A stretch of DNA of 34,420 bases from a virus (IMGVR_UViG_3300032156_001464:1-34420), one strand, 5' to 3'. Positions 5,097 to 20,406 are shown, numbered from the stretch's first letter. Notes: a model not told the origin generated them from the sequence alone. A program made the numbers and translations.

Positions 5097-6125
5097 ATGA
5101 TAAGAATAGCAAACTGGTTGTTGACAAGGAAGTGCAATCTGCGGTGTGAATATTGTGCAATAGTTAGGGATTATGAAAATAAACCTGAAGAATATCCTGA
5201 TATGAAACATTATATAGAAAATGAAATGTCAACCGAAACTGTTATAGATGGTTTGAAAAAGTTGAAGTTACATAATCCTGATATGTTTCATATATTTTAT
5301 GGTGGCGAACCATTATTAAGGAAAGATCTCGCAGAGATAATAGACTTTGCAAATAAGAATAATATTCATTATACAATTATCTCAAATAATACTCCAGAGG
5401 TTCGTCCATTAATTGAAAAATTATTTTCTAAGGTAGGAAAAATAAATGGTTTTACCGCATCTATTGATCCTATATTTTCTAATGAACAAAATGACCATAG
5501 AACTTTAAAAACTATTAGTGGTTTTAATAGTCTGGTAAAATTAAAGGAACTAGTAAATGATGTTGTTGGAGAAATAACTATAACCAATGATACCGTAGAA
5601 AATATTTATGAGTTGGTTAAAATGTTATCTGAAAAAGGAATAAATAGCGATATAACTTTTGTTGATATTGCAAAGACTCCATATTATGACTTCTCAAATG
5701 TAAAGGATGAAAAAGAACTAGTTCAAATATCAGGAAAGTTGGGTGATCAACTTCAAAAGTTATGGTATAATTCTTCTTTAGATATACATATGAAAGATAT
5801 TTTGATTCCAGAAATATGGATGATGTTACCGTCAAATTATGATTGTCAAATAGATCAGATATTACATAATATTTCTATTGACGCAGATGGAACTATAAGA
5901 CTTTGTTTAAGAATTAGAGGAGTTTACACTCCAGATGAGATAAGAATATGGAATCTAATAAAAGATGATGGTGCAATAAATGTCGAAGCTATTGGTGCAA
6001 TAAAACTAGATAAGAAACTATTTTGTAAACGATGTAATCATACATGCCAAATTATGAGTAGAGAAATTGAAAGATACAATACAAATCCTGAAGAACTTAT
6101 TCATTTAGATAAAAGGAGTAAATAA
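5097..6125 (+). CDS. Radical SAM protein with SPASM-like C-terminal cysteines
   Basis: Predicted iron-sulfur enzyme that cleaves S-adenosylmethionine to a radical. The CX3CX2C cluster motif is C13, C17 and C20 in RKCNLRCEYC, and the SAM-binding GGEP motif is at 69-72. The C-terminal third has C-x14-G-x4-C (the Cys in YDCQIDQ, then DGTIRLC), followed by CKRCNHTC at about 310-317, resembling part of a SPASM/twitch auxiliary cluster domain. SPASM enzymes commonly modify peptides or proteins, but the substrate here is unknown. It is not an obvious QueE, which is shorter and lacks such a C-terminal Cys set. AGGAG precedes the ATG. Immediate neighbours are the Ser-run small protein and a WYL_2-like protein. 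Confidence 0.8.
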   Translation: MIRIANWLLTRKCNLRCEYCAIVRDYENKPEEYPDMKHYIENEMSTETVIDGLKKLKLHNPDMFHIFYGGEPLLRKDLAEIIDFANKNNIHYTIISNNTPEVRPLIEKLFSKVGKINGFTASIDPIFSNEQNDHRTLKTISGFNSLVKLKELVNDVVGEITITNDTVENIYELVKMLSEKGINSDITFVDIAKTPYYDFSNVKDEKELVQISGKLGDQLQKLWYNSSLDIHMKDILIPEIWMMLPSNYDCQIDQILHNISIDADGTIRLCLRIRGVYTPDEIRIWNLIKDDGAINVEAIGAIKLDKKLFCKRCNHTCQIMSREIERYNTNPEELIHLDKRSK

Positions 6126-6127
6126 AA

Positions 6128-6484
6128 ATGGTTGATAAAAAAGATGATGAAATCCAAGGTGAAGTATTAATAAATGCCATGATGTTTTGGAAAAAAATAT
6201 ATGATTCAAAAGAAGTAACAATAAAATTTGTAAAGAAAAACGGCGAAGTCAGAATAATGAGATGCACATTGGACTTCAAAAAAATACCTAAAAAAGATGT
6301 TCCGAAACAAGTTAACGTTCCAAGAATGTTACAATTGGTAAAGGAAAAACAAATCATTCACGTATATGATTTGGATAATCAAGGTTGGAGGTCTGTTCCA
6401 TTTTCTGAAGTTGAATGGTTGGAAAATAAACAAGGCCGTTTTTACAGCAAAAAAGCACTTGAACTATTGAGGAAAGCCAAATGA
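6128..6484 (+). CDS. WYL_2/DUF2693-like SH3-barrel small phage protein
   Basis: A 118-residue protein whose central part (about 28-90) carries the pattern of a family common in T4-like phages: a beta strand TIKFVKKNGEVRIMRCTL, then a lysine-rich stretch with IPKK, then a strand HVYDLDNQGWRSVPFSEVEW. These proteins are annotated as WYL_2 or Sm-like SH3-barrel proteins, with proposed nucleic-acid or ligand binding but no firmly known function to my knowledge. The assignment is by recall of the MRCTL and WRS signatures, not by search. AGGAG precedes the start, and the stop overlaps the next gene by ATGA. Confidence 0.7.
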   Translation: MVDKKDDEIQGEVLINAMMFWKKIYDSKEVTIKFVKKNGEVRIMRCTLDFKKIPKKDVPKQVNVPRMLQLVKEKQIIHVYDLDNQGWRSVPFSEVEWLENKQGRFYSKKALELLRKAK

Positions 6485-6876
6485 CAATTCTTGATGAATT
6501 ACTTAGTGAAATAAAAACTATAGATGTAGTTGAAAAATTAAGAATAATTTGTGATAAAATTCAAATAGAAGAAAATGAAAAATTTAAATATGCAAAAGAA
6601 TTAATTCCAAAAGGGCCAAATAATTTTCTGGTTGTTGAAGTTCCAGGAAGAAATCAAAAAGAAATAGCTTATTTGGTTTTAGAAAGAGATATGCCGGTAA
6701 TAACTCAAGCATATAATGCAGTATTATATACGTATATATTATCAAAATTAGATTTAACAAAACCTGAAACGTTTCCACCTCCTAAAAGACAACACTCATG
6801 GATAATAGGTGAAACCGACCCGCGAAAAGTATTAAAACAATTTGCAAGACTAGTTAAATTTTTAAAAGGAGAATAA
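6481..6876 (+). CDS. Conserved-looking hypothetical protein
   Basis: A 131-residue soluble protein that I do not recognise. It has an acidic helical N-terminus, a central beta-rich segment (LVVEVPGRNQKEIAYLVLER) and a Pro-rich turn KPETFPPPKRQHSW before a basic C-terminal helix ending KFLKGE. It overlaps the WYL_2-like gene by ATGA and ends directly before the E2-like fusion gene, so it may be the first gene of the ubiquitin-like cassette or merely lie upstream of it. No catalytic motif is visible. Confidence 0.6.
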   Translation: MTILDELLSEIKTIDVVEKLRIICDKIQIEENEKFKYAKELIPKGPNNFLVVEVPGRNQKEIAYLVLERDMPVITQAYNAVLYTYILSKLDLTKPETFPPPKRQHSWIIGETDPRKVLKQFARLVKFLKGE

Positions 6877-9435
6877 ATGCAACAAGAAGAAATACGAATT
6901 AATGATAAGTTCGTATCTGTGATTAGAGTCGACCAAAATGCTGAAAAACCAGATATTCCAGTGGCAAAACTTCGATCTCAATCAACAAATATATTCTTGA
7001 AAAAACTATATGAAAAATATTCCCAAAATCAAACAGGAATGACTCCTAGAAATTGTAGATATATAGAAAGAATTGATAGTAATAAAACAATTATTGTAAT
7101 AGAAGAACCTCCTTCTTTTAGAACTTTATTCTTTTCAACTGAAACAATAAGAAATCATGTCATGGCCTTAACAAAGGAAAAAATATTTAAATATGAAATT
7201 AACATGGCTGATTATGAAAAAGATACTTGTCAATTCAACCTAGCATTACCATATATAGTTTTTACAATGATATTCAATGGTCCAAGACTTGATATTTTAT
7301 TTGGAGCTGTTAGACCAAAACCAATTATAAGTATATCAGATAATCTTTTTGTTCCTCCATTCTTGAATATAAATGATGCTTGTCAAGTTTGTCTTGGAGA
7401 TCAAGTTAGTGATTCGCAAAATATTATACTGGCTATAGACAAACTTCTACTAAGATTTTGGTCTTCTCAGTTTAACAGAGATTATAATTCAAACTTTGTA
7501 AAGTATTCTGCGGTTCCAATATTAGGAAATTTATTTGATTGGCAATATCAGAGTCAAATAGATCCAATGTTTATTTATAAAGCAGAATGGATTCCTATGG
7601 ATCTCTCATGTCTCACATTTATCACCAGTATAAAAGCAACTTATGCTCCTCATAAAGTGAAGGCTTTAACATATACGGAACTGTATAATATTTTTGATAT
7701 AAAACAAAAATATATACATAAAAAAATAGATGTTAAGAAACCTCCATTACTTACAGATGTTTCTAATGGAATTAATTTATTAAAAACTAAAGATGAGCCA
7801 GCAACGATCTTATATGTTGGAGATCCAATTCAATTTAAAACTAAAACTTTTTATGTAGAAACATTTTTGGGGCATGATGCAGTTGGTCCAGCTGAATATA
7901 TTAGATTTATTGGAGAAGATAATAAATCAATCAGTATGAAATTAACAAAGAGGACAAGATCATTTCTTCTAAAACAAAGGAAAAAATTACTTTTTGAAGA
8001 AACAGTAACCTTATCAAACGGCGTAGTTATAACAGCTGGTGATATTTTAATATTAGAAGATAGAATGTTTAAACCTATTTATAAAAAAATTATTTATATT
8101 AGAAAAAGTTCTGAAGGATTGATGGAGCTAAGAGCAGCAGACCAATATCTGATGGCTGATAATCTTCCTAAAAACGCAAAAATATTAGATTTACAAAATA
8201 TAGAAGTAGATGGGCTCAAGTTGAAAGAAGGTGAAATATATGACGTATGTAATAGACAAGTGAGTAATTCTCTTGTATTGCATCTTATAATAAAAGCAAT
8301 ATTTAAAGAGATTGCTATTGTTCAATCAAATAAATTAGTAGCAATGTTTAAACCTTTGAGCGGTGGTGGACCAGATTTTGGTATAAACTTAAATGACAGT
8401 AACTGTATATTTAAAGAATTAAATATTGAAAACCTTCCTGACGTTATATATATAGGGGCTAATATATTAAAAAATCAATCTACTGGCAAAATATTTAAAA
8501 TGAATAATACTATATGTTATAATTATGGTATTATAAGTATAGGAGATAATACTTTCGAGACTGCATGTAAAACAATTCTGAAAGAAGATGCTTTTACTAT
8601 TAGATCAACTAGTCTGGATATCTTATTTGAAGTTGGTGATGAAGTTGTAGTTGCAAATTGGGAAAATCCAAAAGATATGTTGAAAGTAAAAAAAATAATT
8701 GGAATAACAAAAAATAGTGAGAAAAAAACTATTGAATTTAATTTAGTGGATAAGAATAACAATAATTCAACAGCTACTTATGTAGAAAAAAATATCATTA
8801 ATATTGGAACAGTTAGAAGAATAGTAAGAGAATATAAAGGAATAAAAAGAGGATCAAAAATAGTAGCAAAAAATAATTTAAACGGTTTTCTAAAAGGATC
8901 GGTTAATATAATAATTGGATTCTTAGATGATACAGGAACGCCTGAACCGTTAGTTTATTGTTCAAATTGTTTAACATTATGGTTTAGTGATGTAATAGAA
9001 AATTTTGATATTATTGAAAGAGATTTCAAAACATGGAACGAACTAAATCATAATCCAATTGATATAGCAAGAATTGAAATGCAACCCGGGGATATAGTTC
9101 AATGCTCTGGAGGTTATAGAATGCTTGGAGGATATGCATTATTCAGAACTAGTTCATATGATTTAAACTTAACTGCAGTAATTTTAAAAAATAATATGAA
9201 TTTTGGAGATTATTATAATCTAGATAAACAATTTTTATCAGAAATGAAATTTCACGCAATTTTAAATCCAAGAGTTAATAATTCTAAAGAAGAGATTTAT
9301 CCTTGCATTCCAAATTTACATGGTGGTTATTATACAACTCCACAATTAATAGCAAATGTTCCAAATTCTGCAAATGGACCATTTTTTCAACCAGGGAAAG
9401 GAAGGTTATTTAATGTTTCCGATAGCAATAAATGA
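6877..9435 (+). CDS. Large protein with N-terminal E2-like (PRTRC protein B / Prok-E2_D type) domain
   Basis: An 852-residue protein. Residues 1 to about 230 resemble PRTRC system protein B (prokaryotic E2 family D): a PPSFRTLFF segment near 78-86, a hydrophobic strand LDILFGAVRPKP, then PPFLNINDACQVCLGD containing C172. The last piece parallels the family's APFFNV..G.VC.G element, where the Cys would accept a ubiquitin-like protein. This match is from memory of the family. Residues about 300-850 are beta-rich with recurrent barrel-like turns: GDPIQF at 315, GDILIL at 388, GDEVVV at 587, GSKIVA at 659 and GDIVQC at 738, which suggests tandem SH3-like modules; that region I cannot assign. AAGGAG precedes the start. 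The next genes are JAMM, E1 and UBL, the context expected for an E2. At typical PRTRC-B lengths this protein is several-fold oversized. Confidence 0.6.
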   Translation: MQQEEIRINDKFVSVIRVDQNAEKPDIPVAKLRSQSTNIFLKKLYEKYSQNQTGMTPRNCRYIERIDSNKTIIVIEEPPSFRTLFFSTETIRNHVMALTKEKIFKYEINMADYEKDTCQFNLALPYIVFTMIFNGPRLDILFGAVRPKPIISISDNLFVPPFLNINDACQVCLGDQVSDSQNIILAIDKLLLRFWSSQFNRDYNSNFVKYSAVPILGNLFDWQYQSQIDPMFIYKAEWIPMDLSCLTFITSIKATYAPHKVKALTYTELYNIFDIKQKYIHKKIDVKKPPLLTDVSNGINLLKTKDEPATILYVGDPIQFKTKTFYVETFLGHDAVGPAEYIRFIGEDNKSISMKLTKRTRSFLLKQRKKLLFEETVTLSNGVVITAGDILILEDRMFKPIYKKIIYIRKSSEGLMELRAADQYLMADNLPKNAKILDLQNIEVDGLKLKEGEIYDVCNRQVSNSLVLHLIIKAIFKEIAIVQSNKLVAMFKPLSGGGPDFGINLNDSNCIFKELNIENLPDVIYIGANILKNQSTGKIFKMNNTICYNYGIISIGDNTFETACKTILKEDAFTIRSTSLDILFEVGDEVVVANWENPKDMLKVKKIIGITKNSEKKTIEFNLVDKNNNNSTATYVEKNIINIGTVRRIVREYKGIKRGSKIVAKNNLNGFLKGSVNIIIGFLDDTGTPEPLVYCSNCLTLWFSDVIENFDIIERDFKTWNELNHNPIDIARIEMQPGDIVQCSGGYRMLGGYALFRTSSYDLNLTAVILKNNMNFGDYYNLDKQFLSEMKFHAILNPRVNNSKEEIYPCIPNLHGGYYTTPQLIANVPNSANGPFFQPGKGRLFNVSDSNK

Positions 9436-10762
9436 TGGAAATTTAGAGTTACCAAAAGATGATATAATATATATTATAGCAAAAGAAGGAATATTTCTTA
9501 AGAAGAAACTAGATATTTTAGAAAGCATTGTTCCAGTTCAAAATATTTCTTTCTTGCAAAGTATAAATACAATGGCAAGAATGAATATTCCAAAAATACC
9601 AGGTGATGTTATTACACGAGTAATCTTATTCTTCAGAGAGATCTATAAAATACATAGATCAGAAGCTATTGTATTAATCTTCTATAATAAAATCAAAAAG
9701 AAATTTAAAATGGTTCCTCCGTTTCAAAAAGTTAGTGGTGGTTCGCTTGATTATACTAGAACTATTACTGTAGAGGGATTTGATGTAATTGGAACCATTC
9801 ATAGTCATGGAATGATGTCTGCATTCCATTCTGGAACTGACCAGCATGATGAAAAGAGCTTTGATGGTCTCCATATTACTATTGGAAATGTTGATGAAAA
9901 ATTTGTTAGTATGTCAACTTCAATAGTATCAAATGGAAGCAGATTTATTGTAGACACTATTGAGTATATGGATGGATTAAAGAAAGAAATTGATATTGAT
10001 ACAGTAGAAGAAAGAAGTTATGGAAAAACATATACATGGGATTCAGATCTTCAAAAGATGATAGAAAAAGAAAATACATATAAAGTAAAGAAATTTGATA
10101 AAAGATTTTCTCCAATGCCATCAAAAGAAAGTATTTCGTTTAATAAAGAATGGTTAAAGAGAGTAGAAAAGCAAAGCTATACTGTATCATATCCTTACAG
10201 ACATCATTGGGGTAATAGTATTTATAGTCATGGTTATGGCATGATTGATGATGTAGACGCATGGGAAGATTATTTCAAAAAAATGCGAGGAGACTATACT
10301 CCAGCTGGTTTTACTTATAATAGCAAAGACGATAATAAAACTAAGAAACTAGAAACTGATAAATCAAAAGAAATGAAACCAAATGAAACAGTCATTAAAG
10401 ATGAAGATGACTTTAATCCTTGTGAAAGCTGTGTATTTAGGGACAGCAAAATTGATTGGGTAATAGAACAGATAACACAAGGAAAAGAAGATGAATATGA
10501 TGAAAATAAATTAACAGACCATTTTGTAGTTGATGACCTACAAGTCATTGAAAATCAGAAGGGGGAAAGCTATTTACAAGAAGATCAAAAAGCTATTCAA
10601 GAAGAAGTTCTGCGACAAATAGATGAAGAAGAAGCAATGTTTCAAATAGAAGAATCAAAAACTGTTGAAATGATACCCGAACCTGATAAAAAGGCAATTC
10701 CACTAACGTCAAGATTTGGTGGATTGCTTCGTTATTTGGTTCATAGAAAAGAGGGAACTTAA
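9413..10762 (+). CDS. JAMM/MPN+ (JAB) metalloprotease, probable deubiquitinase-like
   Basis: Zinc isopeptidase-type JAB domain in the N-terminal half. The JAMM motif HxHx7SxxD is complete: H130, H132, S140 and D143 in TIHSHGMMSAFHSGTDQHD, with E84 in SEAIVLIF a plausible catalytic Glu. It is expected to cleave isopeptide or C-terminal bonds of the neighbouring ubiquitin-like protein. The C-terminal half (about 280-449) is unusual: Lys/Asp-rich, then CESC, then a very acidic Glu-rich tail, with no recognised domain. I chose the ATG at 9413 because AAAGGAAGG lies seven bases upstream; an in-frame ATG at 9356 would add 19 residues deep inside the preceding gene with no comparable site. It overlaps the E2-like fusion gene by 23 bases and the E1 gene by one (TAATG). 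Confidence 0.85.
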   Translation: MFPIAINDGNLELPKDDIIYIIAKEGIFLKKKLDILESIVPVQNISFLQSINTMARMNIPKIPGDVITRVILFFREIYKIHRSEAIVLIFYNKIKKKFKMVPPFQKVSGGSLDYTRTITVEGFDVIGTIHSHGMMSAFHSGTDQHDEKSFDGLHITIGNVDEKFVSMSTSIVSNGSRFIVDTIEYMDGLKKEIDIDTVEERSYGKTYTWDSDLQKMIEKENTYKVKKFDKRFSPMPSKESISFNKEWLKRVEKQSYTVSYPYRHHWGNSIYSHGYGMIDDVDAWEDYFKKMRGDYTPAGFTYNSKDDNKTKKLETDKSKEMKPNETVIKDEDDFNPCESCVFRDSKIDWVIEQITQGKEDEYDENKLTDHFVVDDLQVIENQKGESYLQEDQKAIQEEVLRQIDEEEAMFQIEESKTVEMIPEPDKKAIPLTSRFGGLLRYLVHRKEGT

Positions 10763-11442
10763 TGCGAATTGTTATAGTTGGACTTGGGGGTATCGGTTCA
10801 ATTCTATCTGAAAAATTGGCAAGATATCTAAAACATATAACAGATGAACAATTTAATTTAATCTTTATGGATGGCGATGATTATGAAACAAAAAATTTAG
10901 TAAGACAAGAATTTGAAACCTATGGAAACAAAGCAGAGGTAAAAGCAGCAGAAATATTTAATAAATTTGAAATCCCTGTAAAACCATATCCTTATTTTAT
11001 AAACGGAGATAATATTGACGCAATTATACAAGGAAATGATATAGTAATGTTATGTGTTGATAATCATAAAACAAGAAGACTAGTATCAAATTATTGTAGT
11101 TTACTAGATAATATTACTCTTATTTCAGGGGGAAATGATTTTATAGATGGCAATGTCCAAATTTATGTAAGAAGAAATGGTCAAGATATAACAGCAGATC
11201 TTACAACATATCATCCAGAAATTAAAGAACCTAAAGATAAATCCCCAGAAGATATGTCATGTGAAGAATTGGAAAAATCAGAACCGCAACTTTATTTCAC
11301 CAATTTGACAGTTGCAACTATTATGTGTTGGGCATTTTATAATATTATCACAAAAAAGAAAATTGGAATAGGTGAAGTTTATTTTGATATAGAAACTATG
11401 TCAGTAAACTCACAACTTCGAGAACCAAATAAAGGAGAATAA
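10762..11442 (+). CDS. ThiF/E1-like UBL-activating enzyme (PRTRC ThiF type)
   Basis: E1-like adenylating enzyme of 226 residues. Seen: Rossmann ATP-binding loop GLGGIG at 7-12; the D37/D39, N45 and R48-Q49 set in DGDDYETKNLVRQ; D100 in LCVDNHKTRR; and DMSCEELEKSE with C167, aligned by eye with the SC(S)xxE element that carries the catalytic Cys in ThiF-type PRTRC proteins. It should adenylate the C-terminal Gly of the UBL encoded two bases downstream and pass it on as a thioester. It has no separate UFD or Cys-domain insertion, as usual for bacterial E1-like proteins. GAGGG precedes the ATG. Confidence 0.85.
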   Translation: MRIVIVGLGGIGSILSEKLARYLKHITDEQFNLIFMDGDDYETKNLVRQEFETYGNKAEVKAAEIFNKFEIPVKPYPYFINGDNIDAIIQGNDIVMLCVDNHKTRRLVSNYCSLLDNITLISGGNDFIDGNVQIYVRRNGQDITADLTTYHPEIKEPKDKSPEDMSCEELEKSEPQLYFTNLTVATIMCWAFYNIITKKKIGIGEVYFDIETMSVNSQLREPNKGE

Positions 11443-11444
11443 CA

Positions 11445-11906
11445 ATGGCTTACAAAAGAGAATCATTAGAAAACATGACTGTTAATGAATTGAAAGACAT
11501 TTGTTGGGACAAAGACATTAAAGGTGTGTCCAAGAAACCCAAAGTTGTCATTATTGACAAAATTATGGAAAAATATGGTGCTAAGGAAAGAGCTTCTATA
11601 ACACCAGCAAAGTCACCAGCTCCAATGAAAGGTCTGTCTGGAGAATTTGAAAGCGAGCTGACCAATCCAAGTGGAAGAACTGGCGATAAAACAACTACAA
11701 CCATTCAAGTTTCTTGTGGTGCTTCATCTGGTAGATTTCCTGTTGTTGGAAGAACAGTAAGAGAAGTATCAGAATTTCTAAAAGAGATTTTGAATGTAGA
11801 TTCGCTTTCTGCAGGTCTGGTCAATGGCCGGGAAGTATCATCTGACTATGTATTAAAATCAAAAGATACTCTGGAATTTATTAAGCCTTCCGGAAGAAAA
11901 GGATAA
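11445..11906 (+). CDS. Ubiquitin-like protein with N-terminal SAP-like motif (Prok_Ub / PRTRC protein C-like)
   Basis: A 153-residue protein in two parts. Residues about 8-46 (LENMTVNELKDICWDKDI and on to IIDKIMEKYG) look like a SAP-type helix-turn-helix motif, usually DNA- or RNA-binding. A Ser/Pro/Thr-rich linker of about 35 residues follows. Residues about 82-153 look like a beta-grasp ubiquitin-like domain, ending LEFIKPSGRKG with the exposed terminal Gly153. PRTRC protein C, as I recall it, ends in a similar G-x-K-G tail. The domain holds the typical pattern VNG.EV..DY.L...D.LEF. The mature form needs no cleavage to expose Gly, so the neighbouring JAMM enzyme may act by deconjugation. 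AAGGAG precedes the start. Confidence 0.8.
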   Translation: MAYKRESLENMTVNELKDICWDKDIKGVSKKPKVVIIDKIMEKYGAKERASITPAKSPAPMKGLSGEFESELTNPSGRTGDKTTTTIQVSCGASSGRFPVVGRTVREVSEFLKEILNVDSLSAGLVNGREVSSDYVLKSKDTLEFIKPSGRKG

Positions 11907-11921
11907 TATTATCTAACTCAG

Positions 11922-11954
11922 GTTGGGGGATTCATAAAAAATGAATCCCCCAAC
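11922..11954 (+). other. 14-bp perfect hairpin between UBL and second E1 genes
   Basis: Arms gttgggggattcat (11922-11935) and atgaatcccccaac (11941-11954) are perfectly complementary around an AAAAA loop. No T-tract follows on either strand, so it does not look like a standard intrinsic terminator. It could be an RNA processing or stability element, or a terminator read by the phage's own polymerase. The AAAGGAG of the next gene begins 13 bases after it. Confidence 0.8.
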
Positions 11955-11980
11955 AAATAATCCTTGAAAGGAGAGTAGTC

Positions 11981-12829
11981 GTGGTGTATAATAATATCAC
12001 TGTAGTAGGCATCGGAACTCTTGGCGGATTTGTTGCAGATGCAATTTCTGAGTTAGAAAAAGTTTCAAAACTTACCATAATCGACCACGATCTAGTTGAA
12101 GAAAAGAATTTAATTAATTCGATTTATAGACAAATTGATGTAGGACTTCCAAAGGTTGATGCTCTTTCTGATATAATAACTTCAAAATATTCGGATATAA
12201 AAATCGAGAAAATTCAAGAAAAATTTATAGAAGGTAGAACAAAAATTCCTAAAACTGATTTAATATTAGATTGTAGAGACTATACATATGATAGATTGGG
12301 TTTAGTAGATGCTAGATTGTATATGTCATCAAGATATTTAATTGTTGACTGCAGACGTTATGTGACTTATATAGATAAGCAAGAAGGAAAATATTTAGTC
12401 CAACTTTCCAGAGAAGATTTAAAATATGCTTCATTTATTGTATCTTTATTAGTAAATAGTAATACGATAGAAATAATGAAGAAATCAGAAATTGTTCAAA
12501 AATATGAATTGGATCATTTTAAAAAAATAAACAAGAAAAATACATATGATATAGTTTATGAAAATGGAGAAAAATTTATTAATTTACCAGAAAGTATAAA
12601 ACCTATAATAGATTTAAATAAATCAAAAGAATTGACAGTATTTATTGGAAGCAAAATGATTCCAATAACACAAACAATAATTCCAGTAAGAACATTACAA
12701 AACGAACTTGATGTAATATCAAACCTATCATCAATTGTGAAAATTCAAGATTTTAATGCTTTTATTATTTCAATACAAAATAGTAGTGAGGCGTTCATAG
12801 AACTAATTCCAGAAACCGGAGCTGCATAA
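11981..12829 (+). CDS. Second ThiF/E1-like adenylating protein
   Basis: A 282-residue Rossmann-fold E1-like protein. Seen: GIGTLG at 10-15; D35/D37, N43, N46 and R50 in IDHDLVEEKNLINSIYRQ; the DVGLPKVDAL segment typical of ThiF-family proteins; and D100 with R105 in LDCRDYTYDR. No SC-type catalytic Cys element comparable to the first E1 is seen; candidates are only C98 and the Cys in IVDCRRY. It may therefore adenylate without a classic thioester, or act as a partner subunit. About 120 C-terminal residues are of unknown fold. The start is GTG, with AAAGGAG seven bases upstream; a second GTG follows directly at 11984. It abuts the E2-like small gene. Confidence 0.8.
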   Translation: MVYNNITVVGIGTLGGFVADAISELEKVSKLTIIDHDLVEEKNLINSIYRQIDVGLPKVDALSDIITSKYSDIKIEKIQEKFIEGRTKIPKTDLILDCRDYTYDRLGLVDARLYMSSRYLIVDCRRYVTYIDKQEGKYLVQLSREDLKYASFIVSLLVNSNTIEIMKKSEIVQKYELDHFKKINKKNTYDIVYENGEKFINLPESIKPIIDLNKSKELTVFIGSKMIPITQTIIPVRTLQNELDVISNLSSIVKIQDFNAFIISIQNSSEAFIELIPETGAA

Positions 12830-13165
12830 ATGCTGAAAGAAATAAAAGTAGAAACTATAATAGTTCCAAATAAAGTAATTTATAATGGTATGCTTTATAA
12901 GATAGTGGATCTTGAAGAAAAATTTATAATAAGTGAATATACAGTTTCTTTATTTGAGGGAAAAATATTTTCAGTTAAAATTAAGTGTGAACACCCTAAT
13001 GCTAATCCTCTAAGTGGTGAGGTATGCATCCCTGCGAAATTACAAAATCATGGTTTTTCAGATAAAAGTAAAGCAATGATACATTCAATATTATGTTGTT
13101 TTAATTTAGATAATTGTTATTTTACTCCGTGGGGCGAATTTGAATATGAAAAAATGGAGGTATAA
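12830..13165 (+). CDS. Small protein with E2/UBC-like HPN...C motif
   Basis: A 111-residue protein. Beta-rich residues 6-52 lead into CEHPNANPLSGEVCIPAKL, with H55-P56-N57 and C66, then a helix SKAMIHSILCCFNL and a Trp/Pro tail FTPWGEFE. In ubiquitin-conjugating enzymes the same order is seen: beta meander, HPN, a Gly-containing turn, the catalytic Cys about 10 residues after the His, then a helix. Here the spacing is 11. The protein is shorter than a full UBC fold (about 140 aa), so it may be a minimal or degenerate E2-like protein. It starts immediately after the second E1-like stop, which supports pairing. The assignment is motif-based and unverified. Confidence 0.6.
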   Translation: MLKEIKVETIIVPNKVIYNGMLYKIVDLEEKFIISEYTVSLFEGKIFSVKIKCEHPNANPLSGEVCIPAKLQNHGFSDKSKAMIHSILCCFNLDNCYFTPWGEFEYEKMEV

Positions 13166-13626: not shown

Positions 13627-16299
13627 ATGCCAAAGATCTTGGACTATAAAAATTTCTGCGAAACACTAGACGAAATATCGTCTCTAAAACTCATAAGCAA
13701 GAAAAAGTTTCATCCAAGGGGATTATTTTCTGAGCAGATTTTTGGTCCAATACGAAATTATACTTGTCAATGCGGGATTTATTATGGAGTTTCAAAAGCA
13801 GGTGGTAAATGTGAAACCTGCGGTGTAGATATAGTTAATAGTGATGAAAGAAGAAAACGATTTGCTAAAATTACTTTACCAATACCTGTAGTAAATCCTA
13901 TAATGTATGACCTAATATGTGACTTAGGCGGAAAAGAAATTAAGAAATCAATTGATGAATTAATGAAAAATGATAAAAGTAGTTTAGTTAAAACAAGCGA
14001 TGATGAGTATTTTGTAAAGACTGAAGATACTGCTATTCCAGAAACTAATCAAACTTGGCAAAAAACAGAAGCCATATATGAAATAATAAAATTTACAGCT
14101 CAAGATCAAGTTGATTCTGGGAACAATGAATGGAAAATAATTTTAGATAATATCGAAAATGTATTATTAAGTACAGTAATTGTTTTGCCACCAGATCTGA
14201 GACCAACTTCAAAAACAATGCAAGAAAGCAAACAATTAATGGATAAAATAAATAGATACTATGTTCAAATACTTACTAAAAAAGAGATTATGAAGGATAC
14301 AATAATTGATATCCAAAAAGATAAACCACTTTATTATACGTACTTTAAGCAGTTACAAAAAGATGTATTTGAGTTATACGAAAGAATTTTAGAAAAGATG
14401 GCAAAAAAAGAAGGTCTAATTAGAGGAAACATTCTTGGGAAAAGAATTGATTTCTCTGGTAGAGCTGTAATAACTCCTGAACCAACTCTTTCTTTAGAGG
14501 AATGTGAGTTACCATATTTGATGATTTTAGAAATCTATAAATTACCTATAGCAAAAAGAATAATTGAGTTGGGTAAGTTTAAATTATTAAATAAAGCAAT
14601 TGATTTTGTTGATGAATGTATCGAAAAACAATCTCCTATTCTATTTAAAATTGCTTCAGAAATAACAAAAGATGAAGTATGCATCTTAAACAGGCAACCC
14701 TCATTACATAAATTAGGAATGTTGGGTTTTAAAATAAAAGTTACGTTAGATCAAGTTGTAAAGATTCATCCATTAGTTTGTCCTCCATTTAATGCAGATT
14801 TTGATGGAGACCAAATGGCAGTATATATTCCTATTACAGAAGAAGCTAAAGAAGAAATTAGAAATAAAATAAGTATAAAAATGAATTTAAGTAGTCCAGC
14901 AAATGAAAGCTTAACAACAACTCCAAGTCAAGATATTGTTTTAGGAATTTATTTCTTGACTTCAAATTGTTTTCCAAACACAAATGGACAAAAAATGTTT
15001 ATGACATGCCTTCCAGAAAATTATCCGGAAGTAACTGGAGTTGTTGATAATAAAAGATTGATTGAAATTTTAACAGAAATTAAAGATAAATATTCTGAAG
15101 ATATTACAGTAAGAACCCTAGACAATATTAAAAAGTTAGGGTTTAAAGCAGCAACTCTTTATGGTTGCACAATTTCATTAGATGATTGTGAAATGCAAAA
15201 TTCAAAAGAAATAAAAGATTTCATTTATGAAGGTAATAGTATACGAAAACAATTATCAAGATATTCAAATCCAAAGTTAGTAGATGAAATGCGAAAGCAA
15301 TATAAATATTCTTATTTTATTGATTCAGGAGCTCGTGGTAGTTGGGATCAAGTAAAGCAATTAATTTTAACAAGAGGTTTTATTTCAAATTTTGATGGTC
15401 AAATTTTGCCAATACCAATAAAGAGCAATTTAGTAGAAGGATTAACACAAGAGGAATTCTTCTATTCAACATATGGGTGTAGAAAAGGTCTTTTAGATGT
15501 TGCCTTAAATACAGGAACATCTGGCTATCTTTCAAGAAAATTAGTTTTTACATGTGCTAACTTACAACTTGATAAAGATTTAAATGATTGTGGAACTAAT
15601 GATACTTTACAGGTTGATGTAAATTCCGAACGAAAAGCCAGAATGTTAGTTAATAGATATCAATTAAAAAATGATAAGTTAGAGAAGATAACAATAAAAA
15701 ATTATAAGAAAATAGTTGGAAAGGTAATAAATATCAGAAGTCCAATATTTTGCAAAAGTCCAAAAATCTGCACAACGTGTTATGGTGATTTATATAAAAC
15801 AATAAGAAGTAGATTTATTGGAGTATTAGCAGCTCAAACTCTTGGAGAGAAAGGAACTCAATTGGTATTACGAACGTTCCATACTTCAGGTTCAGCAGTT
15901 GTTCAAGCAACTGAAGATTCAAAACCAAATATGAAACAAAAAGATATTATTGGTGATCTAGCTATTGTAGCAGAGTTATTGCATAAATTTAAAGATAAAA
16001 CAGCTATACAAATAACTCATCAATTATTTGAGGCATATGATAAAGATATTTATCATATTCATTTTGAATGTGTTGTTTCGCAATTAATGTGGCATGGAAA
16101 TAGAAAATGGAGATTATTGCCAGAAAGAAATCAAGTTAATCCAACCTTTTATAGTATTCAAAGTGTTCCTAATCATGAAAGTTGGATACTAGCAATGGCA
16201 TTTTCAAATCCCAAACGCTCAATCCTAAATGGTGTTTTATATGAAGGTTTATATTCTGGAATTATGGATAAAATTCTTAAAGGAGAAAAAATAACATGA
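13627..16299 (+). CDS. rpoC-like: DNA-directed RNA polymerase beta' subunit, undivided, bacterial type
   Basis: Catalytic subunit of a phage multisubunit RNA polymerase. In order: GLFSEQIFGP near the N-terminus; N-terminal zinc domain C47-C49-C62-C65; GKRIDFSGRAVI; LNRQPSLHKLGM; catalytic NADFDGDQM at 389-397 with D391, D393 and D395; SPANESLTTTPSQDIVLG; DSGARGSWDQVKQL; bridge helix GCRKGLLDVALNTGTSGYL; second zinc site C655, C709, C715, C718; and trigger loop LAAQTLGEKGTQLVLRTFH near 734-752. The Q of NADFDGDQM marks it as bacterial-like. It has 890 aa against about 1200-1400 in bacteria; the shortening is mainly after the trigger loop (jaw/C-terminal region). phiKZ-type phages split beta' into two divergent polypeptides, whereas this one is a single chain. 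AGG-type site (AAAGGAG) upstream. Confidence 0.95.
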   Translation: MPKILDYKNFCETLDEISSLKLISKKKFHPRGLFSEQIFGPIRNYTCQCGIYYGVSKAGGKCETCGVDIVNSDERRKRFAKITLPIPVVNPIMYDLICDLGGKEIKKSIDELMKNDKSSLVKTSDDEYFVKTEDTAIPETNQTWQKTEAIYEIIKFTAQDQVDSGNNEWKIILDNIENVLLSTVIVLPPDLRPTSKTMQESKQLMDKINRYYVQILTKKEIMKDTIIDIQKDKPLYYTYFKQLQKDVFELYERILEKMAKKEGLIRGNILGKRIDFSGRAVITPEPTLSLEECELPYLMILEIYKLPIAKRIIELGKFKLLNKAIDFVDECIEKQSPILFKIASEITKDEVCILNRQPSLHKLGMLGFKIKVTLDQVVKIHPLVCPPFNADFDGDQMAVYIPITEEAKEEIRNKISIKMNLSSPANESLTTTPSQDIVLGIYFLTSNCFPNTNGQKMFMTCLPENYPEVTGVVDNKRLIEILTEIKDKYSEDITVRTLDNIKKLGFKAATLYGCTISLDDCEMQNSKEIKDFIYEGNSIRKQLSRYSNPKLVDEMRKQYKYSYFIDSGARGSWDQVKQLILTRGFISNFDGQILPIPIKSNLVEGLTQEEFFYSTYGCRKGLLDVALNTGTSGYLSRKLVFTCANLQLDKDLNDCGTNDTLQVDVNSERKARMLVNRYQLKNDKLEKITIKNYKKIVGKVINIRSPIFCKSPKICTTCYGDLYKTIRSRFIGVLAAQTLGEKGTQLVLRTFHTSGSAVVQATEDSKPNMKQKDIIGDLAIVAELLHKFKDKTAIQITHQLFEAYDKDIYHIHFECVVSQLMWHGNRKWRLLPERNQVNPTFYSIQSVPNHESWILAMAFSNPKRSILNGVLYEGLYSGIMDKILKGEKIT

Positions 16300-16478
16300 G
16301 AGATCCAAAAAGAATCAAAAAAATGTTGAAGCAAATAGAAAAGATTTGGGAAAAAAATCCAGACTTAAGATTATTCCAATTACTGCTTAATCCATTAGGA
16401 TTATCTGGAAATACTTCAATATATTACCTTGAAGATGATATTCTTGTAGAAGCATTAAAATATTATGATAGCAAATAG
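16296..16478 (+). CDS. 60-residue MRDPKRI-type protein between RNAP subunit genes
   Basis: A small helical protein starting MRDPKRIKKMLKQIEKIW, with NPDLRLFQLL in the middle and YYLEDDILVEAL at the end. I recall similar short proteins (MRDPKRI..., KNPDLRL..QL, FY.EDDEL) in bacteria and phages, loosely resembling the YihD/DUF1040 group; function unknown to me. It overlaps the beta' stop by ATGA and ends 13 bases before the beta start, so it is translated with the polymerase subunits. An accessory role is possible but unproven. Confidence 0.65.
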   Translation: MRDPKRIKKMLKQIEKIWEKNPDLRLFQLLLNPLGLSGNTSIYYLEDDILVEALKYYDSK

Positions 16479-16491
16479 GAGGATTTAAAAC

Positions 16492-19400
16492 TTGAACATA
16501 ATAAATCCGTTATTTAAAGTAAACGAAGAGAAAAACATCTTTACTATAAGAGAAAAGGATTACGATAAAATATTAGATTCAATACGAGAAATTGTAAATC
16601 CTGTCGAAGAGATAGGGTTTACAATTCTCGAAGTAGATATGAAAGATTCAAGATTTTCATCTGGAGAACTATCAAGAACTTTAAAGCAAACAATAAGCAT
16701 AAAATTACAAAAAGGGTCAAAAGAAATTGATCTAAGTTTGTTTATTCCAAAGTTGATTGAGAAGAACTATATTTTTATAAGTGGAAGAAAAAAGATTCCA
16801 TTATTTCAATTGTATGATCTTCCTATTGTAACAAGAGGAGAGAGCATAAAACTAAGAACTAATGTGGCAACTTTAATGCTTTCAAAATCACCAGAAAAAG
16901 AATCTCCATTTGTATATGTTAGCTTTCTAGGAAAAAAGATTCCTCTTGCTTTATTACTTATTGCATATTTTGGTATAGATGAAATAGTAAAGAAGTTTGA
17001 CCTATCAAGGTTTGATTCCACTAATAATAATAGTAATGATCTATATAATAAACTATTAAGCGATTTAAAATTATATCAAGAAGAATCAGAAGGATATTCT
17101 CAAGAAGATTTCTTAACTGAAATTGGACGATTATATTCAAAATATAATGCAAAAACTAAAGGCGAAGATATTATTTATGCTCTAAATCTAATTCCAAAAG
17201 TTGATCCTATAACAGCAAGCTTTTTAACAACGCCTTCAATTTTAGAAGAGCTAGTAGAAGCTATAAAAATACAAGATATTGATGATACATTATTCATAAA
17301 TAAAAGAGTAAGATGTTTTGAGTATGCAATATTAGCAAAAGTATCAAAAATTATCTTTGATTTATGCTACGCCAATAGAACTGCTAGACAGCCAAAATTT
17401 AGTATCAATTCAACTCAAATTCTTTCTGATTGTAATGTTTCGGATATTGTTCAGTTTGATTTCTCAATTAATCCAATCGAAGAGTTAACTAAGTTATCGA
17501 GAGTAAGCCTTTTAGGTCCCGGAGGATTTAAAAGAGAAAATATTCCTAAACATCTGAGGGATATATGTCCTTCAATGTTCGGCAGAGTCTGTCCTGTAGA
17601 TACTCCAGATAGAGATAATTGTGGAGTTCTTCAGAACTTATTACCAAACGTTGACCTAGATGAAAAATTAAGATTTACTGACAAGATACTAGAAAAACAA
17701 CCAATTTCAATTCCAGTTTCTATGGTTCCATTCTTAAAGAATGACGATCAAACTAGACTTCAAATGTCCTCATCTCAAATGAGGCAAGCTGTTATGTTAA
17801 AAGAATTTGATATTCCAATGATTAGCTCAGGTTCAGAGGGTTTATATACAGATTTTACTCAATTTGTAAAAAGAGCTAAACAAGATGGATATGTGGTTCA
17901 TGCTGATCCTCAATACTTAATAGTTTGTTATAATGATGGCCAAGCAGAAATAATAAATATCAGTTATAGAAAAATCTATGTAGAAAATCTGGACTATATG
18001 CCAAGTCATGTTAAGACAGGAGATAAATTTAAAAAGGGTGATATCTTAGCAGAAAGTAACTTCTGTAAAGATGGAAAAATTATGTTTGGAAAGAATTTAT
18101 TGACTGGTGTTATGGTTCACTATGGAAATAATTATGAAGATGGAATTGTAATTTCTGATCGACTTGTAAAAGAGGGAACTTTTAGTTCAGTTCATTATGA
18201 TGAATTATCGTTTGTTTTACCTCCTGATAAAGTTTTATTATCTCTTTCTGAAGATAAATATGAACCATTACCATTGGTAAATAAATCTTTATCACAAGGA
18301 AATCCATATGCGATCATAAAGAAAATCACAAAAGAAGAACCATCAATTATTTTTAGTGAAGAAATAAAACTTCTAGCTGAAAAGCGATATTTTATTTCTG
18401 AAGTAAATGTTTATGCAAACGAATGGAATACTGAAATTCCAGAATTTAGAGACTGGATTGAAAAACGAATAGTAGAGCAACAAGAAAGAGAAAAATATAT
18501 TCAAACTCTAATTTATGAAAATGTAGAAAAAGATCAAGCTCAAAAATTGATAAGAGAACATAGTTTAGATAAATTTTCTCTTGTAGGTAAATACAAAGAG
18601 AAAAAAGAACGAGTAAATGGAATCATAGTTGAAATAACCGGAATTCATACAAGAAATATTCAAGTTGGGGATAAGATAGCAAATAGGCATGGAAATAAAG
18701 GTGTAATATCTAAGATTATTGAACATGAAAAAATGCCACAACTAGAAGACGGTAGACATATTGATATTTGTATTAATCCAATGGGAATAAATTCAAGAAT
18801 GAATATTGGCCAAATTTATGAACTTCATTTAGCTATGTCACTTTTTGATCTAAAAATGGATCTACTCAAAATGATAGACCAAAAAAGAACGAATAAAGAA
18901 TTAAAAGCACATTTATTAAGTTATATAAAAATAATAGATAAGACAGAAGGAAACTGGTATCTTTATCAATTTCAAAAACAGCTTCCAGAAAAAATAGATG
19001 AAGATTTCGTAAAAGATTTAACAATTATTCAAGCTCCTTTTGAGTCTTGTAAAGTTGAAGATATAAAGAAAGCTCTTGCTTTTACCAAAACTAAGTTTAA
19101 ACAAGAAATCTTTGATCCTTTGTCTAAAGAATACTTACTTAATCCAGTAGCAGTTGGGTTCATTTATTTCTTTAGAATGGTTCATATAGCTGAAGAAAAA
19201 TTAGCTGCTAGAGGAATAGGTCCATATACAAGACGAACACTTCAACCTTTAGGTGGAAGAAAACATAAAGGTGGCCAAAGATGTGGAGAAATGGAAACAG
19301 CATGTCTTATTGGTCATGATGCTCCTGTTAATTTATTTGAGTTTTTAACAACTAAATCAGATTGTATTGACCTAAAGAATAATTATATTAGAAACTCAAT

Positions 19401-19506
19401 TTCTGGAGGATTTGTTGATGATAACAAGAATCCAGATATGGTTCCAGAATCAGTAAAATTATTAGATTCATATTTGACAGTTATTGGAATAGATCATAAA
19501 AAGTAG
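16492..19506 (+). CDS. rpoB-like: DNA-directed RNA polymerase beta subunit, undivided, bacterial type
   Basis: Second large polymerase subunit, 1004 aa (bacterial beta about 1180-1340). Hallmarks in order: RVSLLGPGGFKREN; FGRVCPVDTPDRDNCG near 363-378; GKNLLTGVMVHYGNNYEDGI; GDKIANRHGNKGVISK with the N731-K736 core; INPMGINSRMNIGQIYE; QPLGGRKHKGGQRCGEMET near 918-936; and LTTKSD. The C-terminus PESVKLL...IGI matches the normal end of beta, so it is intact. The start is TTG, with AGGAGG nine bases upstream; no better ATG is nearby. Gene order beta' then beta is reversed relative to bacterial rpoBC. No alpha, omega or sigma gene is recognised here. Confidence 0.95.
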   Translation: MNIINPLFKVNEEKNIFTIREKDYDKILDSIREIVNPVEEIGFTILEVDMKDSRFSSGELSRTLKQTISIKLQKGSKEIDLSLFIPKLIEKNYIFISGRKKIPLFQLYDLPIVTRGESIKLRTNVATLMLSKSPEKESPFVYVSFLGKKIPLALLLIAYFGIDEIVKKFDLSRFDSTNNNSNDLYNKLLSDLKLYQEESEGYSQEDFLTEIGRLYSKYNAKTKGEDIIYALNLIPKVDPITASFLTTPSILEELVEAIKIQDIDDTLFINKRVRCFEYAILAKVSKIIFDLCYANRTARQPKFSINSTQILSDCNVSDIVQFDFSINPIEELTKLSRVSLLGPGGFKRENIPKHLRDICPSMFGRVCPVDTPDRDNCGVLQNLLPNVDLDEKLRFTDKILEKQPISIPVSMVPFLKNDDQTRLQMSSSQMRQAVMLKEFDIPMISSGSEGLYTDFTQFVKRAKQDGYVVHADPQYLIVCYNDGQAEIINISYRKIYVENLDYMPSHVKTGDKFKKGDILAESNFCKDGKIMFGKNLLTGVMVHYGNNYEDGIVISDRLVKEGTFSSVHYDELSFVLPPDKVLLSLSEDKYEPLPLVNKSLSQGNPYAIIKKITKEEPSIIFSEEIKLLAEKRYFISEVNVYANEWNTEIPEFRDWIEKRIVEQQEREKYIQTLIYENVEKDQAQKLIREHSLDKFSLVGKYKEKKERVNGIIVEITGIHTRNIQVGDKIANRHGNKGVISKIIEHEKMPQLEDGRHIDICINPMGINSRMNIGQIYELHLAMSLFDLKMDLLKMIDQKRTNKELKAHLLSYIKIIDKTEGNWYLYQFQKQLPEKIDEDFVKDLTIIQAPFESCKVEDIKKALAFTKTKFKQEIFDPLSKEYLLNPVAVGFIYFFRMVHIAEEKLAARGIGPYTRRTLQPLGGRKHKGGQRCGEMETACLIGHDAPVNLFEFLTTKSDCIDLKNNYIRNSISGGFVDDNKNPDMVPESVKLLDSYLTVIGIDHKK

Positions 19507-19515
19507 GAGGAAAAG

Positions 19516-20406
19516 ATGGCATATATAAATAGTAATGACCTTCCTGATATTCAACAATCAGAACCGAAAATTAAAATGCCAATTATGGAAGTTGGAGTAG
19601 AAAATGTTGAAGTACCATTCATACTTGAGTCTAAGTATGGAGGGTTTCATCATATGGTAGCAAACGTGTCGATGAGAACTTCATTGGATTCGTCTATACG
19701 AGGCATCTCAATGTCACGTTTGCTACTAACTTTAAAACCTTATTTAGATCTACCATTAAAAAGTAAACTTATTAGAGAAATTCTATCAAAACTTCTTGAG
19801 TCAATTGATACTTCTACAGCATTTATGAAATTTGAGTTTAGATTACCAATTGTGAGGAAATCCATTCTTTCACAAAATGAGTTTCCCATTTATTATAAAT
19901 GTAGATTTGAAGGAAGAGCATATAAAGTAAGAGTTATTGGTTTAGATCATAAAGAACATATTGAAACATATTACAGATTTTTTGAAGGTGTTACTGTTCA
20001 ATATGCATCATATTGTCCATGTTCAGCAGAATTGTCATGTTCAGGTTCAGAAGGATATCCTCATAACCAAAGATCTTTTGCAAATGTTTTAGTTGAAGTT
20101 GATTCAGATACTAAATATTATCTATGGTTAGAGGACCTTATTGAACTTGTAGAATCAAGAATAAAAACCTTACCATACCCAGTCATTAAACGGATAGATG
20201 AAAAAGAAATTGGTAAAATAGCAAAAGAAAATCCTTTATTTGTTGAGGATGCTATTAGAGAAATTTCAGAAGGATTAGAAACATTACCTGGAATAAGTGA
20301 CTGGATAGTTAAATGTGTTCATGAAGAATCTATTCACACAAGCGAAGCAATAGCAATTAATTACAAAGGTAATCATGGAGGGTTTGATGGACGTTGGTTT
20401 ATCTAA
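19516..20406 (+). CDS. folE2: GTP cyclohydrolase IB (FolE2 family)
   Basis: Predicted GTP cyclohydrolase converting GTP to 7,8-dihydroneopterin triphosphate, the entry step of folate and of 7-deazaguanine (queuosine, preQ0) synthesis. Family marks: an N-terminal segment with RTSLDSSIRGISMSRLL; the metal/catalytic element YCPCSAEL with C167 and C169; HNQRSFANV with H183; and near the C-terminus FVEDAIREI and EESIHTSEA with E270/E271 and H274. The length of 296 aa is normal. AGGAGG precedes the ATG. Its neighbours are RNA polymerase beta (9 bases upstream) and unknown genes. In phages the enzyme could feed DNA base modification or nucleotide metabolism, but no QueD/QueE/QueC is recognised in the window. 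Confidence 0.88.
   Translation: MAYINSNDLPDIQQSEPKIKMPIMEVGVENVEVPFILESKYGGFHHMVANVSMRTSLDSSIRGISMSRLLLTLKPYLDLPLKSKLIREILSKLLESIDTSTAFMKFEFRLPIVRKSILSQNEFPIYYKCRFEGRAYKVRVIGLDHKEHIETYYRFFEGVTVQYASYCPCSAELSCSGSEGYPHNQRSFANVLVEVDSDTKYYLWLEDLIELVESRIKTLPYPVIKRIDEKEIGKIAKENPLFVEDAIREISEGLETLPGISDWIVKCVHEESIHTSEAIAINYKGNHGGFDGRWFI

Follow-up and report, generated by a model that had tools for sequence, protein, structure and literature searches.

Most descriptions of ubiquitin-like protein (UBL) conjugation in bacteria concern anti-phage defence or plasmid cargo, and bacterial immune operons of the Bil and Bub type combine a UBL, an E1, an E2 and a JAMM-type protease. The plasmid PRTRC cassette corresponds to operon type 6d of Iyer, Burroughs and Aravind (2006), which is marked by an absolutely conserved His residue C-terminal to the E2 Cys (PMC1779556). 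Phage-encoded components were described for lambda/T1 tail assembly, namely the Ub-like TAPI and the JAB protein TAPK (PMC1779556). Here we analysed a virus sequence from IMG/VR (IMGVR_UViG_3300032156_001464:1-34420), a stretch of 34,420 bases which is probably a fragment and is referred to as the window. Six consecutive genes of the window (positions 6877-13165), designated E2D, JAB, E1a, UBL, E1b and E2b, probably encode a phage pathway by which a ubiquitin-like protein is reversibly conjugated. Such a cassette had been proposed from an earlier reading of the same DNA (the original prediction), and all six open reading frames (ORFs) were found on one strand where that reading had placed them.

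The four genes at the 5′ end resemble the UBL core of the PRTRC cassette, as had been predicted. In searches against NCBIfam the best match of E2D was PRTRC_B (E 4.8e-4), that of JAB was PRTRC_A (1.9e-12) and the top match of E1a was PRTRC_ThiF (3e-12), all three below the equivalog cut-offs. E2D carries the expected Prok-E2_D domain at about residues 116–210, with a score above the Pfam gathering threshold, followed by a C-terminal extension of about 600 amino acids (aa) of unassigned fold. Within the domain, N164 and C172 show a spacing resembling that of the Asn and Cys residues of the HPN motif in canonical E2s, and each of them is present in 70/70 homologues. When members from plasmids and metagenome-assembled genomes (MAGs) were included, the Cys was conserved in 108/108 and the Asn in 104/108 aligned rows, the Asn preceding the Cys by eight residues, the same distance as in HPN-type E2s. 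No His residue downstream of the Cys was found among the invariant columns of the E2D alignments, including the wider set.

JAB contains a complete zinc site of the type E...HxHx7SxxD (E103, H149-x-H151-x7-S159-xx-D162, numbered from the listed ORF), and these residues were retained in all 77 homologues covering the motif, while C356xxC359 is also present in most homologues. The predicted gene and its perfect JAMM motif are real, and only the start probably needs revision: the ATG at 9413 (M20) is likelier than the listed start at 9356; the homologues begin there and a ribosome-binding site is present. The predicted candidate catalytic Cys of the ThiF-type protein E1a, C167 within MSCEEL, is conserved in 75/76 relatives, and its adenylation residues D37 and R48 in 76/76 each.

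The UBL is composed of an N-terminal Rho_N-like part and a C-terminal ThiS/TGS-like part that ends with -PSGRKG, hence with one Gly and not with Gly-Gly. Among its homologues 11/11 matched Rho_N at the N-terminus (best 1.2e-6) and 9/11 matched ThiS (best 6.9e-4), family-level matches that suggest a beta-grasp fold. The terminal Gly is essentially invariant. In 75 non-redundant homologues the C-terminus was KG (51), KGC (16) or another short tail (6). The motif [ATS]GxKG occurs near the C-terminus in 117/138 UBL hits compared to 3 of 8,910 other ORFs. A beta-grasp protein ending in Gly had been expected in the original prediction. The proposed Prok_Ub profile gave no match in the window or in the large relatives, while the same search detected four repeats in a cultured phage (see below). 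Two UBL genes (L073 1787-2371 and L116 9215-9769) show two apparent Rho_N-like segments instead of one. An apparent fusion of UBL and E1b in L056 was rejected as a gene fusion; since its UBL part has no KG end, this locus looks degraded or frameshifted.

To follow the cassette across viruses, IMG/VR was scanned with E1a, which gave ten close relatives and, with an alignment as query, 112 (80 kept); an E1b scan gave 50 loci. Gene order across the clade was read with iterated profiles on contigs of up to 312 kb and is radical SAM – WYL_2 – p131 – E2D – JAB – E1a – UBL – E1b – E2b – rpoC – rpoB. The original prediction had suggested looking for conserved order in related phage genomes, and the six cassette genes were indeed found in the same order and on one strand in 60 of 67 viral loci, all of which carry phage rpoC and are non-redundant by this gene. 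A chance origin of the gene set is excluded by this conservation. Several of the seven remaining loci are cut by contig ends or have diverged ORFs at the place of E2b. A further group of giant phage contigs of up to 527 kb has just E2D, JAB, E1a and UBL and is referred to as core-only.

The second pair, E1b and E2b, was analysed by profile comparison and with AlphaFold models. E1b had been predicted as a second E1-like protein, which agrees with its ThiF match (Table 1) and with its model (predicted local distance difference test, pLDDT, 82.9): residues 1–200 match the E1 adenylation domains of Cap2, PaaA, UBA5 and SAE2 with Z up to 16.1. The adenylation domains of E1a and E1b are homologous (hhalign probability 98.9). 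In the alignment E1b has no Arg at its place in NLxRQ, and because an obvious conserved catalytic Cys is also missing, E1b may not be an independent E1. In the model, residues 218–277 are predicted to form a beta-beta-alpha-beta-beta domain followed by an ETGAA tail. The C-termini of the E1b homologues are GAA in 42/66 and GGA in 15/66 cases. Comparison of this domain with the UBL as a possible homologue gave nothing significant (hhalign E 0.025, probability 2).

For E2b the only hits of the profile in the PDB were nine E2 sequences (UBE2L3 or variants, E about 0.6), with HPN aligned on HPN and Cys on Cys and a spacing one residue longer than in UBE2L3. The motif consists of H55-P56-N57 and C66, and in the homologues H55 is conserved in 60/60, N57 in 58/60 and C66 in 60/60. 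The model (pLDDT 93.7) has a UBC-like fold, and all 50 VIA-align matches listed were E2/UBC entries (Z 4.2-5.2). We designate E2b as E2-like on the basis of fold, HPN...C and position combined. An alignment of E2b with E2D, which pairs HPN...C with N164...C172, was weak (hhalign E 0.034, probability 1.5), and homology of the two was rejected as a candidate.

Parts of the cassette are also present in cultured phages. Bacillus phage vB_BauM_KLEB27-3 (OM634661.1) harbours E2_D, JAB and ThiF genes, and nearby gp199 (L012 3709-4416), annotated as hypothetical, which encodes four head-to-tail Prok_Ub repeats. These are nearly identical, 57 aa long and each end with AGVKG; the next repeat starts with Met, and a tail of seven residues follows the last one. 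Vibrio phage D69 (OZ195729.1) combines E2_D, JAB and ThiF with a three-repeat UBL with TGTKG ends. The UBL profile gave no hit in the D69 genome, though this poly-UBL is clear from its repeats and C-terminal motif. The ThiF gene of D69 (L159 8800-9819) is annotated with too late a start; its open frame reaches further upstream and takes in the nucleotide-binding motif. In Salmonella phage Arash (OQ632216.1) the E2_D (gp248), JAB (gp247) and ThiF (gp246) proteins are all among 116 proteins reported in purified particles (PMC10585845). An Arash ORF ending with RTGTKG (L158 50-307) overlaps the annotated gp251 in another frame and looks like a cassette UBL. In KLEB27-3, D69 and Arash the E2_D domain scores under the Pfam gathering threshold. 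JAB and ThiF members were also found in Acinetobacter phage ME3 and the crAss-like phage cr128_1; in the latter (MT774392.1, L160 4525-6651) a Prok-JAB match just under the cut-off adjoins the ThiF gene.

Scanning species genomes with E1a revealed 19 loci in MAGs. Two of these contigs, binned as Thermoplasmatales and Woesearchaeota, carry the cassette block with RNA polymerase genes and E1b inside and are probably phage contigs. Most other MAG loci have the four-gene core or part of it, with a UBL that usually ends with KG or KG and a short tail. No cellular relative of E1b was found in species genomes with the patterns used. In a tree of E1a the phage and MAG sequences (support 94/93) are separated from those of plasmid PRTRC and of several cultured phages, and the KLEB27-3 E1 is sister to the E1 of a Cytobacillus plasmid (100/98). 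The UBL end AGTKG also occurs in a Cytobacillus plasmid cassette. Several deep branches of this tree are open and some rows are long.

The coordinates of the cassette and its conserved neighbours are listed in Table 1. The radical SAM, WYL_2 and 131-aa protein genes precede the cassette and the RNA polymerase genes follow it, with every one of these genes on the plus strand, and the window further encodes a helicase, SbcD, SbcC, a terminase and a protein with a weak tape-measure match.

Table 1 Genes of the predicted conjugation cassette and conserved neighbouring genes in the window
Feature	Position	Strand	Basis
E2D (852 aa)	6877..9435	+	Pfam Prok-E2_D 28.8 bits (gathering cut-off 25)
JAB, putative JAMM/JAB isopeptidase	9413..10762 (listed ORF start 9356)	+	Pfam Prok-JAB 28.7 (cut-off 25)
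E1a, predicted ThiF-type UBL-activating enzyme	10762..11442	+	Pfam ThiF 73.6 bits (cut-off 28.1)
UBL (153 aa)	11445..11906	+	Rho_N-like N-terminus, ThiS/TGS-like predicted beta-grasp C-terminus
E1b, second ThiF-type protein	11981..12829	+	Pfam ThiF 51.4 bits (cut-off 28.1)
E2b, small E2-like protein with modelled UBC fold	12830..13165	+	HPN...C; AlphaFold model
Radical SAM protein, upstream of the cassette	5097..6125	+	Pfam Radical_SAM; kept order
WYL_2 (Sm/SH3-like) protein	6128..6484	+	Pfam WYL_2 33.0 bits; kept order
131-aa protein (p131)	6481..6876	+	no family match; kept order
Phage RNA polymerase beta′ and beta genes, directly 3′ of the cassette	13627..19506	+	PHROG RNA polymerase matches
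FolE2-type GTP cyclohydrolase, downstream of rpoB	19516..20406

Conservation extends beyond these polymerase genes: sbcC is located upstream of the radical SAM gene in 38/38 loci, and among 72 relatives whose sequence extends far enough downstream, 60 have a FolE2-type gene. A specific linkage of the cassette to RNA polymerase was therefore rejected, and the proximity to rpoC-rpoB is not read as specific. Together, the FolE2-type and radical SAM genes may hint at a pathway that modifies nucleotides. The lytic lifestyle assumed in the original prediction is supported only indirectly, as no match to Phage_integrase was detected in 10 large virus records. Likewise, the predicted absence of ParB-like genes was borne out, as ParB_N matched nothing in the window (a fragment) and nothing in 8 large contigs from the clade; each of the two core-only giants has a single ParB_N match far from the cassette. 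Phage-encoded ClpP was considered as a degradation partner and rejected, since 8 large virus records from the clade encode none.

Between UBL and E1b the window contains a strong hairpin (11922-11954) with a 14-bp stem and a folding z-score of −6.1 but without a T-run, which may divide two transcription or processing units. At the same place many relatives have an extra ORF with a GVSICSxLD motif (L005 11189-11755, L007 7162-7698, others), which is missing from the window and for which the L005 copy has no Pfam match. A conserved ORF of about 81 aa is likewise present between UBL and E1b in some relatives (L007 7776-8021, L011 11212-11454), the L007 copy again without a Pfam match. Giant phage contigs can carry two to three E2D-family paralogues close together (L067 6264-8569; L076 4414-8861), and in one giant phage group an AAA ATPase gene adjoins UBL (L077 11124-12746, Pfam AAA 3.4e-24).

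We interpret the locus as a conjugation pathway because of the domain matches, the conserved gene order and the near-invariant catalytic residues. The UBC-like model of E2b, the E1 adenylation fold of E1b, the [ATS]GxKG motif and the removable-looking UBL tails argue in the same direction, and so do the poly-UBL genes beside E2_D, JAB and ThiF in cultured phages and the Arash proteins reported in virions. According to this interpretation the UBL would be made with a C-terminal -[AS]GxKG, sometimes with a short tail to be cleaved off by the JAMM enzyme. As judged from family and conservation, E1a would adenylate the terminal Gly and take over the UBL on C167, from where it would pass to C172 of E2D and then to target lysines. 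The long C-terminal part of E2D may help to choose these targets, probably proteins of the phage or the host that are dealt with in the course of infection, and the JAMM enzyme would reverse the conjugation. The tag might act in phage assembly, in transcription or in taking over the host, or it might counter the immunity of the host. In this phage clade E1b and E2b could provide a second branch or an adaptor, with the C-terminal domain of E1b serving as a built-in UBL or as a docking domain for E2b. If one may guess from the Rho_N-like domain of the UBL, nucleic-acid-bound machinery would be a candidate target.

The observations on which the original prediction had made itself dependent came out in its favour: family matches and a UBC-like predicted fold were obtained, and the terminal Gly of the UBL, C167 of E1a and C172 of E2D are all essentially invariant in relatives. 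Several points nevertheless weigh against a conjugation pathway. The His of the classical HPN motif is replaced by another residue in E2D, and in E1b, which has no obvious conserved catalytic Cys, C98 sits in a VLDC motif. The UBL of the window alone matches ThiS weakly (E 0.06), and its beta-grasp assignment is derived from ThiS/TGS family matches. The predicted HPN...C protein stands with its motif and its UBC-like model, but the E2b sequence of the window alone has a weak UQ_con match (E 0.16), its fold Z is modest (≤5.2), and Foldseek with this model returned weak E-values and no significant match. The virion detection in Arash may reflect carry-over into the preparation. Finally, adenylation, thioester relay, lysine conjugation and JAMM-dependent maturation or removal are steps that we infer from sequence.

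Part of the evidence would also suit a sulfur-carrier pathway, in which a ThiS/MoaD-like UBL activated by the ThiF proteins feeds small-molecule, tRNA or DNA modification together with the radical SAM and FolE2-type enzymes. The ThiS/TGS matches and the conservation of both enzyme genes in the clade fit such a role, but a sulfur carrier does not account for two E2-like proteins with an invariant Cys, for the retained JAMM protease or for head-to-tail poly-UBLs, and no radical SAM–rpo block adjoins the four-gene core of the core-only giant phages or of most MAG loci. We therefore consider this pathway very improbable. Somewhat less remote, yet still unlikely, is that the cassette mainly supplies a deconjugase and a competing UBL to oppose UBL-based immunity of the host (Bil, Bub, type II CBASS). 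Bacteria employ UBL conjugation against phages (PMC10097602), papers on Bil and Bub are cited in PMC13373217, and the JAMM motif is intact in every homologue covering it. Nevertheless, a decoy would not require a full E1-E2 set whose catalytic residues are invariant and whose position in the core block is fixed, and PADLOC gave generic E1-E2 matches only, to the two ThiF proteins. That the cassette is an accessory, PRTRC-derived module, carried by chance and unused in phage biology, is hardly credible: its nearest named families are plasmid PRTRC proteins, but the order is kept across loci within a core block that also contains SbcC and RNA polymerase genes, and E1a sequences from phages and MAGs cluster separately from those of plasmid PRTRC.

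Another arrangement concerns the role of E1b, which might form a heterodimer with E1a like SAE1/UBA2 and dock E2b by its beta-grasp-like C-terminal domain, so that one UBL would be served by two E2s. The homology of the adenylation domains, the lack of the NLxRQ Arg and of a conserved catalytic Cys in E1b and the presence of the C-terminal domain make this a real possibility, if one somewhat short of an even chance. On the other hand, E1a can dispense with E1b, which the core-only giant phages and most MAG loci lack, and a docking domain has no need of a conserved GAA/GGA end. More far-reaching, and in our opinion rather doubtful, is the idea of a widespread phage ubiquitin-like code with enzymes for maturation, conjugation and removal, in which E1b of this clade would carry its own conjugatable beta-grasp with the GAA/GGA end and hand it to an HPN-type E2, yielding two tagging chemistries from one block during infection.

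If the proposed conjugation pathway is true, its fixation in the core block of large phages would reverse the usual roles, with the virus tagging proteins. The cultured relatives, with a polyubiquitin-like gene and with virion-reported E1, JAB and E2, make the question directly testable, and the cassette adds viral sequences to the evidence on the origins of E1s, HPN-type E2s and genes of the polyubiquitin type. In the literature searched, which excludes most subscription papers and all preprints, UBL conjugation encoded by phages was not found to be described. Two reviews on jumbo phages (PMC7824862, PMC13282480) and a paper on crAss-like phages (PMC7886860) describe no such system, and within the same literature PRTRC combined with ubiquitin gave an unrelated paper only.

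Compared to PRTRC, the phage cassette likewise has genes for a UBL, a JAB, an E1-like and a family D E2-like protein together, three of which match the PRTRC families under their curated cut-offs. In contrast to PRTRC it belongs to large phages, where it sits within a core block that adjoins the genes for phage RNA polymerase, has no ParB, and adds E1b and E2b. Furthermore, its UBL is ThiS/TGS-like with Rho_N and not of the Prok_Ub type (PRTRC_C), E2D comprises 852 aa compared to about 228, and the invariant His after the E2 Cys is not seen. Because the Prok_Ub, ParB and conserved-His features fail, the cassette is, as far as its sequences tell, PRTRC-like and not a PRTRC member. The fold of E1b matches the Bub E1 (BubCD), whereas phage ownership and the presence of two ThiF and two E2-like proteins distinguish the cassette from Bil and Bub operons. 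Top structural matches of E1b also include Cap2 of type II CBASS with the CdnD C-terminus bound; unlike that system, the phage cassette has a dedicated UBL gene, and neither a fused E1-E2 nor a CD-NTase was found among the scanned cassette and neighbouring genes, to which the CD-NTase search was confined. Similarities to eukaryotic systems are the HPN...C of E2b, as in HPN-type E2s, and the four head-to-tail repeats of KLEB27-3, each following repeat starting with Met as in polyubiquitin; the UBL sequences differ, and this likeness is known here as one of arrangement alone. The TAPI/TAPK tail system, as described, comprises neither E1 nor E2, whereas the cassette would provide the whole pathway.

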